Assembly: GCA_903875215.1 (NCBI GenBank)
Contig: CAIQVH010000016.1
Location: 1-64,000 of the forward strand
Direction: 5' to 3'
Source: an uncultured Anaerolineae bacterium
GTDB lineage: Bacteria; Chloroflexota; Anaerolineae; Anaerolineales; Villigracilaceae
DNA length: 64,000 nucleotides
Part shown: positions 114 to 6,270 of the stretch, in pieces
Layout of the letters: every line of letters begins with the position of its first letter
Numbering within the stretch: the stretch's first letter is position 1
Notes under the pieces: generated by a model
Databases searched by the model: none
What the model was told of the DNA's origin: nothing
Seen by the model: only the letters and a program-made list of their open reading frames with translations
Translations under genes and position numbers: made by a program

Positions 114-243
114 GCCCAACGGTTTGCGTTACCTGCGCTGGGGCGGGGACGGCGAAGCCGTCCAGCCAGAAAAAGGATAAGGCGTATGAAAATGCTTGGG
201 ATGTGCGCAGAATCCCCAGCGTCAGGTGCACGCTTTGTTGGGC
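114..243 (-). repeat. attC site of cassette 3
   Basis: The outer boxes are GCCCAAC (114-120) and GTTGGGC (237-243), matching the attC R''/R' consensus. Inside, ACCTGCGCTGGGG near the left pairs with CCCCAGCGTCAGGT near the right, giving the long imperfect palindrome that IntI recognises as a folded single strand. Its inner stem differs from the two other attC sites at three base pairs, and each change is compensated on the opposite arm. The site begins 14 nt after the stop codon of the cassette 3 gene. Confidence 0.92.
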
Positions 244-257
244 GCATTTTGGAATAG

Positions 258-1265
258 TTACTTCACCTCTTTTATAAGATTGCCTTCTTTATATCTGAAT
301 TTGCGTTGAGACGATGGTATTTTTTCAAGGTCAATGACGCCAACAATACACTCTGTATTTATATTTTCGAGTTCACTAATATCATTCGATGGAATGTTTA
401 ACCAACTACTTCGATAATACTGGCTTGGAGATTTCATAACAAATGCTTTGCGTTTTTTATTTTGTGCAGTACTTTCAATGTCAAAGGACACAAAATTAGT
501 GACTTTGAATTCAACACTTTTGAACAAATCACGAAGTTTGGCTATGAATTTTTGTTTGGCTGGTGCTTTCTTCAAATTGCGGAATTTCTGAATGCCATCA
601 AATAAATTTGATGCTGGCATTGCTCCCATATTTAATCTAAACAACTTGGGAGTAAGATTCCCTGTGTGAATAGTTACAGATATGATGCTGTGGAATAAAA
701 ACTGAAAACGTGGGTTTAGGGTTACATTTTCAAGTTTAACGGGAACAGATATTTCTTCTAATGTTGGCAAAAAGGAAAACGGCAAAACTATTTCAAACGC
801 TGCTTTTGGAGATAATGGTGGAATTGAGAAAGAAATTAACGTAAAGTTTCCAATCTCATCAACCGACTGTTTGATATTCTCGCTTGCGAGACTTGGATAT
901 GTTGAAGTTACCATTTCGTTTGGTTTAGTTTTCCAAAAAATGTGATTAGGAACGTGAATCGAAATAAGTATCTCATCGGTTGCGGCGTCTCCTATGTTAT
1001 AGATAGTGAATTTGATAGGGTAAACGGCGTAATCGTTTGAATCTCCTGGGTGAATGAAAAGCCAATCTTCGTTGTCGGGATAACCTTCACCTACCTTGCA
1101 GTCAAATATAGAAAAGCCAATTTCTGGTTTTCGCAATGCCCCAGATTCTTCTGCAAGTTGGCGGTCATGTCTCATTGTCATTCTGGCAATGCGTATGCCT
1201 ACCAGAATCCCAATAATGGTAAAAAATAACCCACCAATACCAATGAGTAAGTTTGCTATTTCCAT
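258..1265 (-). CDS. Cassette 3 gene: membrane-anchored protein of unknown function
   Basis: The product has 335 residues from the ATG at 1265. An in-frame TTG further upstream would lie inside the attC site and is not preferred. Residues about 5-27 form one hydrophobic segment (NLLIGIGGLFFTIIGILVGI) followed by basic residues, so the protein is probably anchored by its N-terminus. The remainder is soluble-looking, with no enzyme motif I recognise. The gene is AT-rich, has no clear Shine-Dalgarno, and starts 18 nt after the previous recombination point, which is normal for a cassette. It ends 14 nt before its attC. I do not recognise the family. Confidence 0.8.
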   Translation of the reverse strand: MEIANLLIGIGGLFFTIIGILVGIRIARMTMRHDRQLAEESGALRKPEIGFSIFDCKVGEGYPDNEDWLFIHPGDSNDYAVYPIKFTIYNIGDAATDEILISIHVPNHIFWKTKPNEMVTSTYPSLASENIKQSVDEIGNFTLISFSIPPLSPKAAFEIVLPFSFLPTLEEISVPVKLENVTLNPRFQFLFHSIISVTIHTGNLTPKLFRLNMGAMPASNLFDGIQKFRNLKKAPAKQKFIAKLRDLFKSVEFKVTNFVSFDIESTAQNKKRKAFVMKSPSQYYRSSWLNIPSNDISELENINTECIVGVIDLEKIPSSQRKFRYKEGNLIKEVK

Positions 1266-1283
1266 AATTTTTAGACTCTCAGC

Positions 1284-1412
1284 GCCCAACGGTTTGCGTT
1301 ACCTGCGTGTGGGCGGGCGTGGACAATGCTTGGGAGCAGGAAAAACTCGAAGCCAGAAAAATGCCTGAAAATGCCGCAGAATCCCACACGTCAGGTGCAC
1401 GCTTTGTTAGGC
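1284..1412 (-). repeat. attC site of cassette 2
   Basis: The boxes are GCCCAAC (1284-1290) and GTTAGGC (1406-1412). The inner arms are ACCTGCGTGTGGG and CCCACACGTCAGGT. Apart from the variable central part it is almost the same as the attC at 2135-2264. It starts 6 nt after the stop codon of the cassette 2 gene. Read on the - strand, the R'' box is GCCTAAC. That is complementary to the GTTAGGC at the front end of the same cassette, as expected if the cassette once circularised. Confidence 0.92.
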
Positions 1413-1418
1413 TGCGTT

Positions 1419-2117
1419 TTATGGGCTAGGCGTTTTAACTTTAGCACAGTATTGACCATAATCGCCATAACCATTCCAATCAATCAGTCTATCAAAAGAC
1501 TCGTTTTCTGCGGTTTCATTTGCAAGCCATGATTTGGAGAAAAATATGCTTGAAATGTAATCGGACTCTTCAATTTTCTCTGTGTTGTCACCCTGCCAGA
1601 TAATGACAAATAGACCAAGTTTAGGATAATGTAATTTCCATACACCACATGGTGAACCAGCAGGGTAATTATTGAAATTAATAATAACCGCTAAATCTGG
1701 TTCTCCTACTAAAGAAATCAAATCTCCAACGGTAAACCACTGTTCTTCGAACCAAACATCAATCGAATCTACTCGCCCATCTTTATTTAGCGTTACTCCA
1801 CCATATTGTTGTGGGATGCTATCGGACTTGGTATTAATTCTCCAGATAATACTTTCAAAACCATTCTTTGGATTTAATCCACCAGTATTGAGGGCGACAT
1901 TTTGTTCGCCATAATAACTTCTCAAAATCTTTTCAACTTCATCAACTTCTAAAGTCATTCCTTGCTCAATCCCTAACCAGCAAGGCTTGTTACACTTACT
2001 TAAATCAATTACATCTTTTATGGATTTGCTATGTTCCGAATTAGAACTGGCACAACCATAAAATAACAACATCATTAAGGCGAATACTAGAATGCGCTTG
2101 GTGTGATTATGAAACAT
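1419..2117 (-). CDS. Cassette 2 gene: putative lipoprotein of unknown function
   Basis: The product has 232 residues. The N-terminus MFHNHTKRILVFALMMLL is a signal sequence ending in a lipobox-like FYGCAS, so Cys22 is the probable lipidation site. The mature part begins with a CNKPCWLGI segment containing a Cys pair. The rest is an alternating beta-rich sequence that I cannot assign to a domain. The start at 2117 lies 18 nt after the cassette recombination point and has no evident Shine-Dalgarno. It is AT-rich compared with the chromosomal genes to the right. The product is probably exported and membrane-tethered; function unknown. Confidence 0.8.
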   Translation of the reverse strand: MFHNHTKRILVFALMMLLFYGCASSNSEHSKSIKDVIDLSKCNKPCWLGIEQGMTLEVDEVEKILRSYYGEQNVALNTGGLNPKNGFESIIWRINTKSDSIPQQYGGVTLNKDGRVDSIDVWFEEQWFTVGDLISLVGEPDLAVIINFNNYPAGSPCGVWKLHYPKLGLFVIIWQGDNTEKIEESDYISSIFFSKSWLANETAENESFDRLIDWNGYGDYGQYCAKVKTPSP

Positions 2118-2134
2118 TGCTTACAAAGCCAGCA

Positions 2135-2264
2135 GCCTAACGGTTTGCGTTACCTGCGTGTGGGCGGGCTGAGATTCGGTTTGAGAGGTAGAAAAAACTC
2201 GAAGCAAGGAAAATGCTCGAAAATGCCGCAGAATCCCACACGTCAGGTGCACGCTTTGTTGGGC
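2135..2264 (-). repeat. attC site of cassette 1
   Basis: The boxes are GCCTAAC (2135-2141) and GTTGGGC (2258-2264). The stems are ACCTGCGTGTGGG and CCCACACGTCAGGT, with a variable middle. It lies 43 nt after the stop codon of the cassette 1 gene. The left box belongs to the next cassette by the known cut position (between G and TT of the R' box), which explains why the two outer boxes are not perfectly complementary here. Confidence 0.92.
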
Positions 2265-2307: not shown

Positions 2308-3471
2308 TTACGGAAACCATGATTGGGTACTAGTAAAAAGAATCATATTACTCAGTTCGGGTGGCAAACTTGGAATTAAATAACTTCCAGGGTTGGTTTC
2401 AGCGTCAAACGGTTTGTTGTATCCCTTAATAAGCCCCTTAATCTGATATTGCGTCGTGTCTTCAAACAAAGTTATCATATTCGTGTCAAGTAATAATGCA
2501 ACATTAGGGTTAGGCTTGTCATTGCTATAACTAAAGGTGTCGGGAGAAAACTGATTAGTACCGTAGTTATACGGGAACACAGGCACTAATTCTCCTGGTG
2601 GATGCGATTCCCCGTCCAGAAACTTGAAAATCAAAGGATATTGAATTTGTTCTTCATACCGTTTCTTATCAAAGCCCATGTTCATGATAACAATACCATT
2701 TGGATTCTCTGTCGTTGGGTTCCAACTTGCTCGTTTGATGATATAGATGGTGTTACCCCTCTGGTCGGTTGTTTGCTGCATCCCAAAATAGGTAAAGGGC
2801 TTATTTTGATTTCGTGATACTTTGGTAGTATTTTGCTCAGTCAAGAGATATTGATTAGGACCAGTTAATGCAACGATATATCCGTTTGGTCCTGCTTTAT
2901 TTACTGACAAAGAAACACGGTAGTATGGATAAAAAGCATCAGCAGCAATCATGCCAGGATGCTCGGCAACATAGAGCATGTTGCTTAATGCAACTGAACT
3001 TGGAGTGTATTTTTCATCTCCAGGTTTAGAACCATCATAAAATGCTTCAAGCGGTACAAACGGGGAAATTTCGGGATGTGCATAATCTGTGTTTGTTAAA
3101 AATTCTGGTACCCATGCTGATAAATGATTATTCCAGATAAATCTTGTTCCCGTAGCATCGTCCATATACCAAAGAATTTCCCCGACAAGGGTTTCGATAA
3201 ACGGAGATTGGGTTATTCTTACTTTTATCGGGTCTATATTTAGTGTCTTAGTATTTTCTGAATACAACAGCCTTTCCGTAACAAAGTATGTTTCCGAATC
3301 AGAATTTATCAATATTCTCGGATCAGGTGTGGATGTTTTGGTTGGTGAAGGTGTTGAGGTTTCTATTGATGTAAGAGTAACAATAGCCATAGGGGTGGGT
3401 GTAGAAAGCGGCACACATGAAGTTAAAATAATAGCAACAAGCGAAACTGTGACACTGTTTTTGATTTTCAT
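2308..3471 (-). CDS. Cassette 1 gene: putative lipoprotein with Thr/Pro-rich linker
   Basis: The product has 387 residues. The N-terminus MKIKNSVTVSLVAIILTSC is a type II signal peptide with lipobox LTSC, so Cys19 should be lipidated. Residues about 22-50 are rich in Thr, Ser and Pro, a linker style shared with chromosomal lipoproteins of this genome (62071-63159 and 16944-17327). The body shows no motif I recognise. This is the attI-proximal cassette and therefore probably the best expressed. An AAGG precedes the ATG at 3471. The shared linker style suggests the cassette was made in a related host, although its base composition is AT-rich. Function unknown. Confidence 0.82.
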   Translation of the reverse strand: MKIKNSVTVSLVAIILTSCVPLSTPTPMAIVTLTSIETSTPSPTKTSTPDPRILINSDSETYFVTERLLYSENTKTLNIDPIKVRITQSPFIETLVGEILWYMDDATGTRFIWNNHLSAWVPEFLTNTDYAHPEISPFVPLEAFYDGSKPGDEKYTPSSVALSNMLYVAEHPGMIAADAFYPYYRVSLSVNKAGPNGYIVALTGPNQYLLTEQNTTKVSRNQNKPFTYFGMQQTTDQRGNTIYIIKRASWNPTTENPNGIVIMNMGFDKKRYEEQIQYPLIFKFLDGESHPPGELVPVFPYNYGTNQFSPDTFSYSNDKPNPNVALLLDTNMITLFEDTTQYQIKGLIKGYNKPFDAETNPGSYLIPSLPPELSNMILFTSTQSWFP

Positions 3472-3496: not shown

Positions 3497-3503
3497 GCCC
3501 AAC
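3497..3503 (-). other. attI/cassette 1 recombination junction
   Basis: GCCCAAC on the + strand reads GTTGGGC on the - strand, which is the G/TTRRRY core where cassettes insert. It lies between the integrase and the first cassette gene, where attI must be. Its sequence is the exact complement of the R'' box (GCCCAAC on the - strand, 2264-2258) at the far end of cassette 1. The right-hand extent of attI cannot be fixed by eye. A GGCGG...CCGCC inverted repeat at about 3537-3562 may belong to it. Confidence 0.8.
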
Positions 3504-3583
3504 ATGCAAATGGACTGCCAGTCCAATAGCTTATGGGCGGTGTGAAGCGGTCTTGCGCCGCCTAATTCCTAAATTAATTTGGG

Positions 3584-3640
3584 ATTTTAGACGGCAACAA
3601 ACACATTCACAGGGTAAAATACGATATCACCGTCTAAAAT
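3584..3640. promoter_or_regulatory. Inverted repeat between attI and intI
   Basis: ATTTTAGACGG (3584-3594) is repeated exactly in inverted orientation as CCGTCTAAAAT (3630-3640), with 35 nt between. It lies between the cassette junction and the integrase promoter, so it could be an operator for a dimeric regulator, or mark an old attI or insertion boundary. It is too widely spaced for a simple terminator. Confidence 0.5.
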
Positions 3641-3661
3641 TTCAGTTTATTGGGGGAATTC

Positions 3662-3714: not shown

Positions 3715-4689
3715 ATGGCAGAGAAAAAACTCCTCGACCAGCTTCGTGATGTTCTTCGCACCAGGCACTACTCCTACCGCACCGAACAGACCTATGTGGA
3801 TTGGTGCCGCCGCTTCATCCTATTTCACGACAAACGCCACCCAAAAGACATGGGGGAATCAGAAGTCCAGGCCTTCATCACCCACCTCGCTACGGAGGAT
3901 AAGCTTTCTTCATCCACCCAAAACCAGGCCCTCAGCGCAGTGCTTTTCCTCTACCGCCACATTCTTAACCGCGAACTTGCCTTGCCTCCCGAGCTGATTC
4001 GCGCCAAAACTCCCACCCGCCTCCCAACCGTCCTCTCCAAACAAGAAGCTCTCACCGTCATCAGCAACATGCAGGGAACATCCAAACTCATGGCACAAAT
4101 CCTCTATGGCGCTGGGCTGCGTCTCATGGAGTGTGTGCACCTGCGCGTCAAAGATATTGACTTTGAAAACCACCAAATTATCGTGCGGGGAGGCAAAGGC
4201 GACGAAGACCGCTACACCATGCTCCCCGATTCGCTGATTGCTCCCATCAGGGAGCACCTTCGCAAAGTAAAAATTGTGCACGAACAAGATATCAAAGATG
4301 GCTACGGCGGCGTTTCGCTGCCTTTTGCGCTCGACCGCAAATACCCCAGCGCCCCCCAGGAATGGGCCTGGCAATACGTCTTCCCGGCATCCAAGCGCGC
4401 CCGCGACCCTCGCGCCCCCATCACCCCCGGCCCGGCAGGTGAACTCCGCCACCATATCGATGAAACTGTCCTCCAGCGTGCCGTGCGCCAGGCTGCCCGC
4501 ATTGCCAAAATCGATAAACCTGTTTCCCCGCATACTTTTCGCCATAGCTTTGCCACCCATCTGCTGCAAAACGGATATGATATCCGCACCGTCCAGGAAC
4601 TCCTCGGCCACAAAGATGTCAAAACCACCATGATCTACACCCACGTCCTGCAGCGCGGCGGGCTGGCCGTCAAAAGCCCGCTGGATTAA
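3715..4689 (+). CDS. intI: Integron integrase (IntI-type tyrosine recombinase)
   Basis: The product has 324 residues, the usual IntI length. It inserts and excises cassettes by recombining attI and folded single-stranded attC sites. The N-terminal SAM-like DNA-binding domain covers about residues 5-90. The catalytic domain shows Arg136 (GLRLMEC), Lys161 (GGKG), His273 and Arg276 ([11 protein letters not shown]), His299 (LGHKD) and nucleophile Tyr308 (MIYTHV). Residues about 195-222 hold the extra patch ([16 protein letters not shown]) that separates IntI from XerC/XerD, and the end [14 protein letters not shown] is also typical of IntI. All catalytic residues are intact. The start is the ATG at 3715 with a weak AAGAGA upstream. 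It is transcribed away from the cassette array. Confidence 0.95.
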
Positions 4690-4818
4690 AACCCCTCGCC
4701 AGGCACAAAAGCTCAAAAATGGCAACAGACTAAACAGCCGGGCTGGCGCAGTAGCGCAAAAATTCCCGCGCCGGGCGGGTATTTTTCGCGGCCATATGCC
4801 AATATGAGCAGCCGGCAG

Positions 4819-4880
4819 GACATTTTACGGGGTAGGAAAGACATTTTACGCGGTAGCAAAGACATTTTACGCGGTAGCAG
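4819..4880. repeat. Three tandem copies of a 21-bp unit
   Basis: GACATTTTACGCGGTAGCAAA occurs at 4840-4860. A copy with two differences precedes it (4819-4839), and a copy lacking the last base follows (4861-4880). A period of 21 bp is two helical turns, so the copies face the same side of the DNA. They lie about 120-180 bp upstream of the probable oxygenase promoter. They could be regulator-binding iterons or a plain short tandem duplication next to the integron. Confidence 0.75.
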
Positions 4881-5002
4881 GCCCGGTTCACCTCTTGAGC
4901 GGGTTGTTGACCAAAGGAATCCATTCACCACAAAGACAACAAAAATCACCAGGAATTTCCGGGTCAACGCAGCGCCCGGCCGCCAACCAAACGCCCCTTT
5001 TT

Positions 5003-5031
5003 TCAACACTTTCAACACTTTTGGGTATACT
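5003..5031 (+). promoter_or_regulatory. Probable promoter of the Rieske oxygenase gene
   Basis: TCAACA (5003-5008), 17 nt and TATACT (5026-5031) form a sigma70-like promoter about 75 nt upstream of the ATG at 5107. The -35 region includes a direct repeat of TTTCAACAC. Confidence 0.4.
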
Positions 5032-5106
5032 TCGCCAATCTGGCTGACCATGCTTGCAGCCAGACCAGCCCGCAACGGCCCCACCCTCATCCACCAGGAG
5101 CCCCTT

Positions 5107-6225
5107 ATGCCCCAGTTTTTTAAGACCGCCGATACCTTCATCGCTGGCGACATGACCCTGCCGCAGCAATATTACACCTCCGCCGAGATTTTTGCCCGCG
5201 AAAAAGAGCGCATCTTCGACCGCTACTGGTTTTGCGTTGGCCACCAGAGCCGCATCCCCAACCCCGGCGATTATTTCGTCCAGGAATTGCTCGGCGAAAG
5301 CCTGATTATCCTGCGCGACCGCGAAGGCCAGATCCGCGCCTTTTACAACGTCTGCCGCCACCGCGGCACGCGCATCTGCGAGCAGGCCGAGGGCCAGTTC
5401 AAGAACAGCATCCAGTGTTCCTACCACGCCTGGACCTACGGGCTGGATGGCAGGCTGATTGGCGCGCCGTTCATGAAGGAAATCGCCGACTTTCGCTGGG
5501 AAGATTTTCCGCTGCGCGCCGCGCCGGTGCGCCTGTGGGAGGGCTTCATCTTCCTGAATACCAATCTCCAGGCCGGGCCGCTGCCCTTCGACGAGTTGTT
5601 CGCCCCCATGCAGGGCCGCATCAGCCAGTGGAACGTCTCCCAGCTGCAGGTCACGCACCGCGAGCGTTACGAACTGGCCGCCAACTGGAAGTATATTTTC
5701 CAGAACTTCAACGAGTGCTACCACTGTCCCACCATCCACCCGCTGCTGAACACCATGACCACCTACGTCAGCGCCGAAAATGACCTGGTGGATGGGCCTT
5801 TCCTGGGCGGTTTTCTGGAACTGAAACAGGAAAGCATGACCGTCACCGGGCGCACCTGTGCCCTGCCGCTCGGCCAGCTCAGCGCGGGCGACGAAAAGCG
5901 CGGCTACTACTACACCCTGCTGCCCAACCTGCTCCTGAACATTCACCCCGATTACATCATGTACCACCTGATCTTTCCCCACGCGCCCGGGCGCAGCACC
6001 ATCGTCAGCGAATGGCTCTTTCACCCCGAGGCGGCCGCCCGCCCCGGTTACCACCCGGCGGACGCTGTCGACTTCTGGCACGAAACCAACCTGCAGGACT
6101 GGCACGTCTGCGAGTTGAGCCAGCAGGGCGTGCAGTCTGCCGCCTACACTCCCGGCTGGTACACGCCGCGCGAGAGCCTGCTGGCGGCCTTCGACCGCGA
6201 TTACCTGAAAACGATGGGTGACTGA
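5107..6225 (+). CDS. Rieske non-heme iron oxygenase, alpha subunit (quaternary-ammonium type)
   Basis: The product has 372 residues. It is the oxygenase component of a two-component system that uses O2 and electrons from a separate reductase. The Rieske [2Fe-2S] ligands are Cys83, His85, Cys104 and His107 (CRHRGTRIC...CSYHAW). The mononuclear iron site is His206 and His211 within NECYHCPTIH. The residue bridging the two centres is Glu203 rather than Asp, as known in carnitine and glycine-betaine monooxygenases, so a quaternary amine substrate is plausible (inference). The start at 5107 has AGGAG 7 nt upstream. No reductase gene is adjacent. It ends just before a strong terminator facing a convergent gene. 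Confidence 0.88.
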   Translation: MPQFFKTADTFIAGDMTLPQQYYTSAEIFAREKERIFDRYWFCVGHQSRIPNPGDYFVQELLGESLIILRDREGQIRAFYNVCRHRGTRICEQAEGQFKNSIQCSYHAWTYGLDGRLIGAPFMKEIADFRWEDFPLRAAPVRLWEGFIFLNTNLQAGPLPFDELFAPMQGRISQWNVSQLQVTHRERYELAANWKYIFQNFNECYHCPTIHPLLNTMTTYVSAENDLVDGPFLGGFLELKQESMTVTGRTCALPLGQLSAGDEKRGYYYTLLPNLLLNIHPDYIMYHLIFPHAPGRSTIVSEWLFHPEAAARPGYHPADAVDFWHETNLQDWHVCELSQQGVQSAAYTPGWYTPRESLLAAFDRDYLKTMGD

Positions 6226-6230
6226 AAAAC

Positions 6231-6270
6231 AAAGCCGCAGGCGCAGGGAATTCCCTGCGCCTGCGGCTTT
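6231..6270. terminator. Bidirectional rho-independent terminator
   Basis: This is a perfect 40-bp palindrome. The left arm AAAGCCGCAGGCGCAGGGAA is followed directly by its exact complement, with GAATTC at the centre, an A-run on the left and a T-run on the right. It sits between the stop codons of two convergent genes (6225 and 6273), so it can serve both. Confidence 0.9.

Follow-up and report, generated by a model that had tools for sequence, protein, structure and literature searches.

Three repeats at the start of a contig from an uncultured Anaerolineae bacterium are very probably attC sites, located near the intI gene of a sedentary chromosomal integron of the Anaerolineales (Chloroflexota). 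Within these sites, the inner stem appears free in sequence but bound to pairing; the array holds two attC lineages, and the outermost pairs of the fold are the property of the cassette. We first describe the locus, then pairing and lineages, the cassette ends, and the way in which the stem arms change.

The integron locus and its attC sites

The analyzed window comprises 64,000 bases, positions 1 to 64,000 of contig CAIQVH010000016.1. Its start is base 1 of the 592-kb contig, and the cassette array is truncated there. The gene intI (3715-4689, plus strand) encodes an integron integrase of 324 aa, which reaches 454 bits with TIGR02249, above the curated cut-off of 265 bits. Divergently from intI, three ORFs are arranged on the minus strand, each followed by an attC site. 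They encode proteins of 387 aa (cassette 1, 2308-3471), 232 aa (cassette 2, 1419-2117) and 343 aa (cassette 3, 258-1289), none of which matched a Pfam or NCBIfam family at E≤0.001. By eye, the proteins of cassettes 1 and 2 show lipoprotein-like N-termini, i.e., a hydrophobic stretch followed by Cys. A putative attI lies beside intI, and its junction with the first cassette, GTTGGGC (3497-3503, minus strand), matches the opposite end of cassette 1 (2258-2264) with 11 nt of complementarity when the flanks are included.

Further repeats were observed around intI. An imperfect inverted repeat of 31 nt (74%; 3564-3594 and 3630-3660) is located between the attI junction and intI and may be part of attI or a control element of intI. 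A 90% match to 3562-3591 adjoins intI in locus L067. Directly past intI, three 21-bp tandem units (4814-4876) give rise to DILRG-like repeats at the start of the ORF 4804-6225, and an intergenic, perfect 20-bp palindrome lacking a spacer (6231-6270) is perhaps a two-way terminator.

The attC sites of cassettes 3, 2 and 1 span 114-243, 1284-1412 and 2135-2264, respectively, and are oriented with the array on the minus strand. As the array reads on this strand and intI is divergent, the recombinogenic bottom strand is the plus strand of the window. All three sites carry RYYYAAC and GTTRRRY boxes (114/237, 1284/1406, 2135/2258). The first site belongs to the CGCTGGGG lineage: on the plus strand its left inner arm CGCTGGGG (136-143) pairs with the right arm CCCCAGCG (214-221), followed by an extrahelical T at 222. 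The other two belong to the CGTGTGGG lineage. In site 1284, the left arm CGTGTGGG (1306-1313) pairs with CCCACACG (1383-1390) and the extrahelical T is at 1391; in site 2135, the same arms are found at 2157-2164 and 2235-2242, with the T at 2243. Thus, as stated in the initial annotation, sites 1284 and 2135 share their inner arms, and site 114 differs from both in three pairs altered on both arms (C138-G219, T139-A218, G140-C217).

Folded as single-stranded DNA, all three sites adopt the expected hairpin on either strand, with R, L and inner stems, a loop of 69-70 nt, an unpaired central spacer and, on the plus strand, the extrahelical T. This anatomy of central spacer, extrahelical bases and terminal structure, recombined as bottom strand, is that described for attC in PMC8946536 and PMC3518468. 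Folding energy alone is weak evidence: per 200 shuffles, 0, 42 and 3 folded at least as well on the plus strand as sites 114, 1284 and 2135, respectively, such that energy is not distinctive for site 1284. The identification of the three repeats as attC, already made in the initial annotation, is borne out by boxes, folds, covariation, matches to a covariance model and the neighboring IntI. Of 457 related sites, 429 have T at the extrahelical position. As second extrahelical base, either G or C is found, in the arrangement T-N5-G or T-N6-C; this deviates slightly from the T-N6-G given in PMC3518468 for efficiently excised attC.

Pairing and covariation in the inner stem

The three altered pairs had been taken as direct evidence that the folded structure, and not the sequence, is under selection. 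From three sites, which offer a single contrast, this was too strong a statement; the part of it that holds, maintenance of pairing in the inner stem, becomes visible across relatives. Within the genome itself, a search for a 24-base arm pattern, in which three mismatches were allowed, gave only the three window sites. The covariance model pointed to additional, weaker attC-like sites on other contigs of the same genome (G000:C19:195999-196128, G000:C4:28349 and 29433), whose stems are broken or cut.

A first alignment was composed of 13 sites, the three of the window and ten from relatives. Its L/inner helix has 17 pairs with 99.5% of cells paired. Eight pairs are invariant, eight vary on both sides, none varies on one side, and one departs by an unpaired cell only. 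The covariation score of the whole structure was reached by none of 500 column shuffles, and shifting the partner columns by one to three positions lowered it from 0.228 to at most 0.067.

For a larger set, an arm-scoring finder proved unsuitable. With strict scores it found nothing, not even the known sites; with looser scores it recovered the three sites of the window and missed most of those relatives in which the R boxes did not match. For this reason, a covariance model combined with L and R box anchors was adopted. The model yielded 117 matches, of which 100 were parsed further, the remainder being partial or double; a parse with fixed geometry left 29 of these 100 unparsed. The large set was picked by the L and R box anchors alone, so that stem pairing played no part in the choice of sites. 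After removal of 166 duplicates, it consists of 457 distinct sites, contributed by the window and by 307 loci. All 12 inner pairs are Watson-Crick in 282 sites, 63 sites show one departure (46 mismatches, 17 G.T), and 112 show two or more, part of the latter being chance anchor matches or sites with shifted geometry. The set comprises 43 distinct perfect stem types. Dropping sites with loops outside 62-77 nt, with more than one anchor mismatch, or with N leaves 402 sites for the tree-based test and 401 for pairing counts. Of the latter, 279 are fully Watson-Crick over the 12 inner pairs, 56 have one departure, and 66 have two or more.

Covariation was assessed on the 402 sites (359 distinct arm pairs) by a home-made test in the style of R-scape, with Fitch reconstruction on a FastTree tree, reassignment of substitutions to branches, a G statistic and average-product correction; the null of 60 alignments is coarse, and the tree ignores recombination between sites. 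Among 1770 column pairs, the top six, and seven of the top eight, are stem pairs. Relatives from many Anaerolineales genomes thereby confirm a joint change of both arms. The three pairs singled out in the window reach E<1/60, 0.033 and 0.10. No covariation within the site was detected for R-box and L-box pairs in this test. The next-ranked pairs outside the structure are neighbors in one arm (25-26, E=0.20; 33-34, E=0.38); they are not significant and would fit a change by blocks rather than independent compensation.

Hence, pairing rather than sequence is maintained in the inner stem, presumably by selection. Uncompensated stem changes are absent from the array, where all three sites are intact, and present among relatives (the 66 of 401 sites with at least two broken inner pairs) and in the site at G000:C19 (L124), which has four inner-stem mismatches. 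Pairing is thus not maintained in every site. Those with broken inner pairs form a minority that resembles arm swaps, small indels or decay, and the wider data support a structural constraint on attC. IntI would recognize the folded bottom strand, i.e., the plus strand of the window, leaving the inner stem free in sequence as long as its arms pair; boxes, L arms and extrahelical T are fixed.

Two attC lineages and their spread

The three altered pairs probably do not represent three independent compensations within the array, since site 114 belongs to another attC lineage; it differs from the other two sites over its whole length (72-73% identity). Site 114 falls into a large lineage with CGCTG stems and a GACGGCGAAGCCGTCC loop, sites 1284 and 2135 into a lineage with CGTGT stems. 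These are the two largest loop clusters, with 112 and 96 of 280 intact sites, and the contrast in the window thus separates two attC lineages which are widespread in relatives. Both lineages would have arrived in the array on different cassettes.

With the covariance model R1, the attC family was found in 40 of 61 genomes (60 relatives and the own genome) at E≤1e-3, and in 119 of 152 genomes of the taxonomic family, covering 22 of 26 genera, at E≤1e-10. Together with the 592-kb contig, this marks the integron as chromosomal and its attC as typical of the host group. Loops across the attC family are most often 69-70 nt long. A two-sided attC pattern scan of named genomes returned at least 119 contig stretches. 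Among those listed, at least 94 are Chloroflexota by title (mostly Anaerolineales, Anaerolineae or simply Chloroflexi), at least eight carry no phylum, and at least 17 name other phyla, as sorted by manual reading of the record titles. Judged from these named relatives, the Anaerolineales would be the host group.

The stretches from other phyla (L153, L162, L168, L176, L179, L194, L195, L222, L226, L230, L231, L242, L243, L250, L251, L256, and L263) include titles of four Chlorobiaceae MAGs, Desulfobacula and Saprospiraceae, and may reflect cassette transfer or mis-binning. The finder returned no attC in the environmental plasmid integrons L308 and L309. Several relics of attC are cut off abruptly past the inner stem (L112:4255-, L113:5632+, 9613+, 13137+, L137:2025-, L139:291-, L122:152-, L123:138-) and run on into one of two common sequences, starting with AGTATCATGAA or GTAGGGTCA, as though attC had a set position for the insertion of elements. 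Moreover, the IntI genes of some relatives (G009:C1, G015:C174, G022:C15, and G027:C34; loci L029, L031-L033) bear in-frame insertions of varied length near profile position 228, about 128 aa in G022.

The outermost pairs belong to the cassette

The R-box columns are highly changeable (98, 124 and 113 changes were reconstructed in three of them), and yet they show no covariation within the site. In the core site, the crossover point separates G from TT (PMC3518468). As crossover splits the GTT, an attC in the array joins the boxes of two cassettes. The two ends of the same cassette were compared, using sites with at most one inner departure and neighbors at a distance of 150-2500 bases.

For 167 cassettes, the unbroken complementarity between both ends has a mean of 9.75 nt, versus 4.81 nt for 334 sites in situ and 4.44 nt for random pairs. 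The ends match over at least 7 nt in 157 cassettes (94%), as opposed to 22% in situ and 16% for random pairs; in the other ten, they match over less than 7 nt. Position by position, cassette ends agree in 81-100% of cases through the tenth base and fall to background at the eleventh (41% versus 36%). In situ, matching is near random past the invariant bases. The window follows the same pattern: its cassettes have 11, 10 and 9 nt of end complementarity, and the in-situ sites have 3, 3 and 9 nt. The outermost pairs, which comprise the R box and about 3 further bp, hence belong to the cassette, and because they match between the ends of one cassette, full pairing is reached only in the excised circle.

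R1 does not match the attC of L038 and L041. In six cassettes from these two genomes, the ends match over 9-14 nt, versus 7-9 nt in their ten in-situ sites. Five class 1 cassettes from three plasmid stretches were inspected as well. The ends of aadB, aadA2 and aadA5 match over 12, 12 and 11 nt, those of dfrA25 over 8 nt, which is no more than chance pairs of the same stretch, and for dfrA17 no end match of at least 8 nt was found. The rule that cassette ends match seems general, though not without exception. Matching between the 7-bp boxes within a cassette has reportedly long been known through the work of Hall and Stokes. An extension by 3 bp beyond the boxes was not found stated in those portions of the attC literature which were examined.

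How the stem arms change

Three separate compensations probably do not explain the change; arms seem to be moved in blocks. When intact sites are limited to loops of 62-77 nt (280 of 282), loops and stems reassort among them, and a single loop cluster carries many stem types. Up to three differences in about 70 loop positions were found in 286 pairs of intact sites. The stem is the same in 267 of these pairs; of the other 19, 16 differ by three to seven stem pairs and three by one. As an example, L106:3405 and L080:768 differ in one loop base and in four adjacent stem pairs.

A close intact loop exists for 30 of the 66 broken sites; the 36 without one were left unclassed. A script assigned one foreign arm to 21 of the 30 (13 left, 8 right), two foreign arms to five, and none to four. 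On inspection, two of the right-arm cases turned out to be one-base deletions in an otherwise matching arm, such that 19 sites with one foreign arm remain. In 12 of them, each arm is identical to a known intact type, and L164:6628 and L165:3092 are only one and two loop bases away from intact sites. Foreign arms occur also on contigs of 3.1 Mb (L164:6628, L294:2451). Among 142 intact sites, moreover, 11 deviate in both arms by at least three pairs from the majority of close loops; this amounts to fewer than 11 events, since some of these sites are reciprocal.

It is quite possible that these patterns result from stepwise compensatory substitution under selection alone, one side mutating and being repaired later, with loops that are alike because they are constrained or young. 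The 63 of 457 sites with exactly one departure are what is expected of transient intermediates, and single-pair neighbors exist in the space of stem types, where 37 of 42 types have another type one pair away. However, stem differences are bimodal at small loop distance, block differences in a single arm occur, and transitions are scarce among the compensated changes. The latter comprise 583 transitions and 860 transversions; for the same pairs of sites, the loops show 1616 and 1084, respectively, although counts taken over pairs are interdependent. With compensated changes this rich in transversions, G.T intermediates are not the main path.

Alternatively, and more tentatively, both arms may be rewritten in concert. 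Recombination with another attC, or template switching to it, would exchange one arm en bloc, with breaks at the stem-loop junction, and the other arm would be copied from the new one during hairpin extrusion in replication. A compensation of several pairs would thereby reduce to one or two templated events, and selection for the extrahelical bases would preserve the asymmetry. This would account for the 16 of 19 close-loop pairs with several stem differences, for the pair L106:3405 and L080:768, for the excess of transversions, for the 11 intact sites with both arms altered, and for the 19 sites with one foreign arm, especially the 12 with exact known arms and the two nearly loop-identical to intact sites. 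The 19 sites would be caught intermediates of arm replacement. Template switching is described as producing multi-base compensations in RNA hairpins (PMC8794818); a literature search for template switching at attC of integrons found no report on the subject among the matches listed. On the other hand, the single-pair steps also occur, and the close-loop pairs, which have sites in common, do not count as independent events. Foreign arms could stem from mis-assembly or a strain mixture in a MAG, and those of no known type (L232:3257, L290:134, L086:19, L124:999, L163:6510, and others) could be point mutations. We regard it as doubtful that two attC sites swap an arm of 8-12 bases as a block, breaking at the stem-loop junction, and that template switching on the extruded hairpin then rewrites the opposite arm, apparent compensation being templated repair.

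Conversion between loops would likewise yield equal loops on different stems, which counts against this reading. A third explanation, in which gene conversion or homologous recombination among attC homogenizes the loops, heterologous stems are left behind and crossovers create chimeras, is rather unlikely. It agrees with the many stem types on one loop cluster and with 20 exact chimeras, i.e., sites with arms of two different known types. Yet in 11 of the 20, both loop halves clearly follow one stem lineage; four weakly agree, and five are mixed or unclear. Where both halves derive from one lineage, the break lies near the arm and not inside the loop. This suggests that many breakpoints are near the stem-loop junction and that arms are replaced as blocks.

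Relation to known attC sites and significance

Vibrio cholerae repeats (VCRs) are the type case of attC in sedentary chromosomal integrons. The sites described here share with such attC the RYYYAAC and GTTRRRY boxes, L arms, an unpaired spacer, an extrahelical T, a long terminal loop, a structure captured by covariance models, and an attC family tied to a host group. They differ in their highly variable inner stem, which shows its 43 perfect types between conserved boxes and a semi-conserved loop. Taxon-specific attC families in sedentary chromosomal integrons are reported in PMC8352920. With the class 1 cassettes aadB, aadA2 and aadA5 from plasmid records, the sites have in common an end complementarity beyond the 7-bp box; the class 1 attC are short (57-60 bp) and of other sequence, and IntI1 is 50% identical to the IntI found here. 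Template-switch hairpin mutations, as presented in PMC8794818, resemble our block changes in that several bases are compensated between arms with little change around them; they were described for RNA genes, whereas here a DNA recombination site is concerned and the mechanism is a proposal. That the three repeats are inverted repeats of an unrelated kind, for instance terminators or REP-like elements, would agree with hairpins sitting between genes and the missing Rfam match of the sites at the gathering score, but is highly improbable in view of the neighboring IntI, the box and bulge anatomy, the cassette-end matching, and the covariance matches across the family.

As it is already established that IntI reads the structure of attC, the paired-arm observation by itself confirms known biology. 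The occurrence of intI in Chloroflexi was reported in 2008 (PMC2426708). A description of a Chloroflexi attC family was not found in the searched literature as far as its text was accessible, and the word Chloroflexi does not occur in PMC8352920. The larger set of sites supplies the covariance model of an attC family that is widespread, shows the outer stem to be a feature of the cassette in its circular form, and can serve as a natural test for concerted change in paired arms, a question usually put to RNA. The fresh part is the block-wise replacement of arms, perhaps via template switching, which, if true, bears on the origin of new attC sites.
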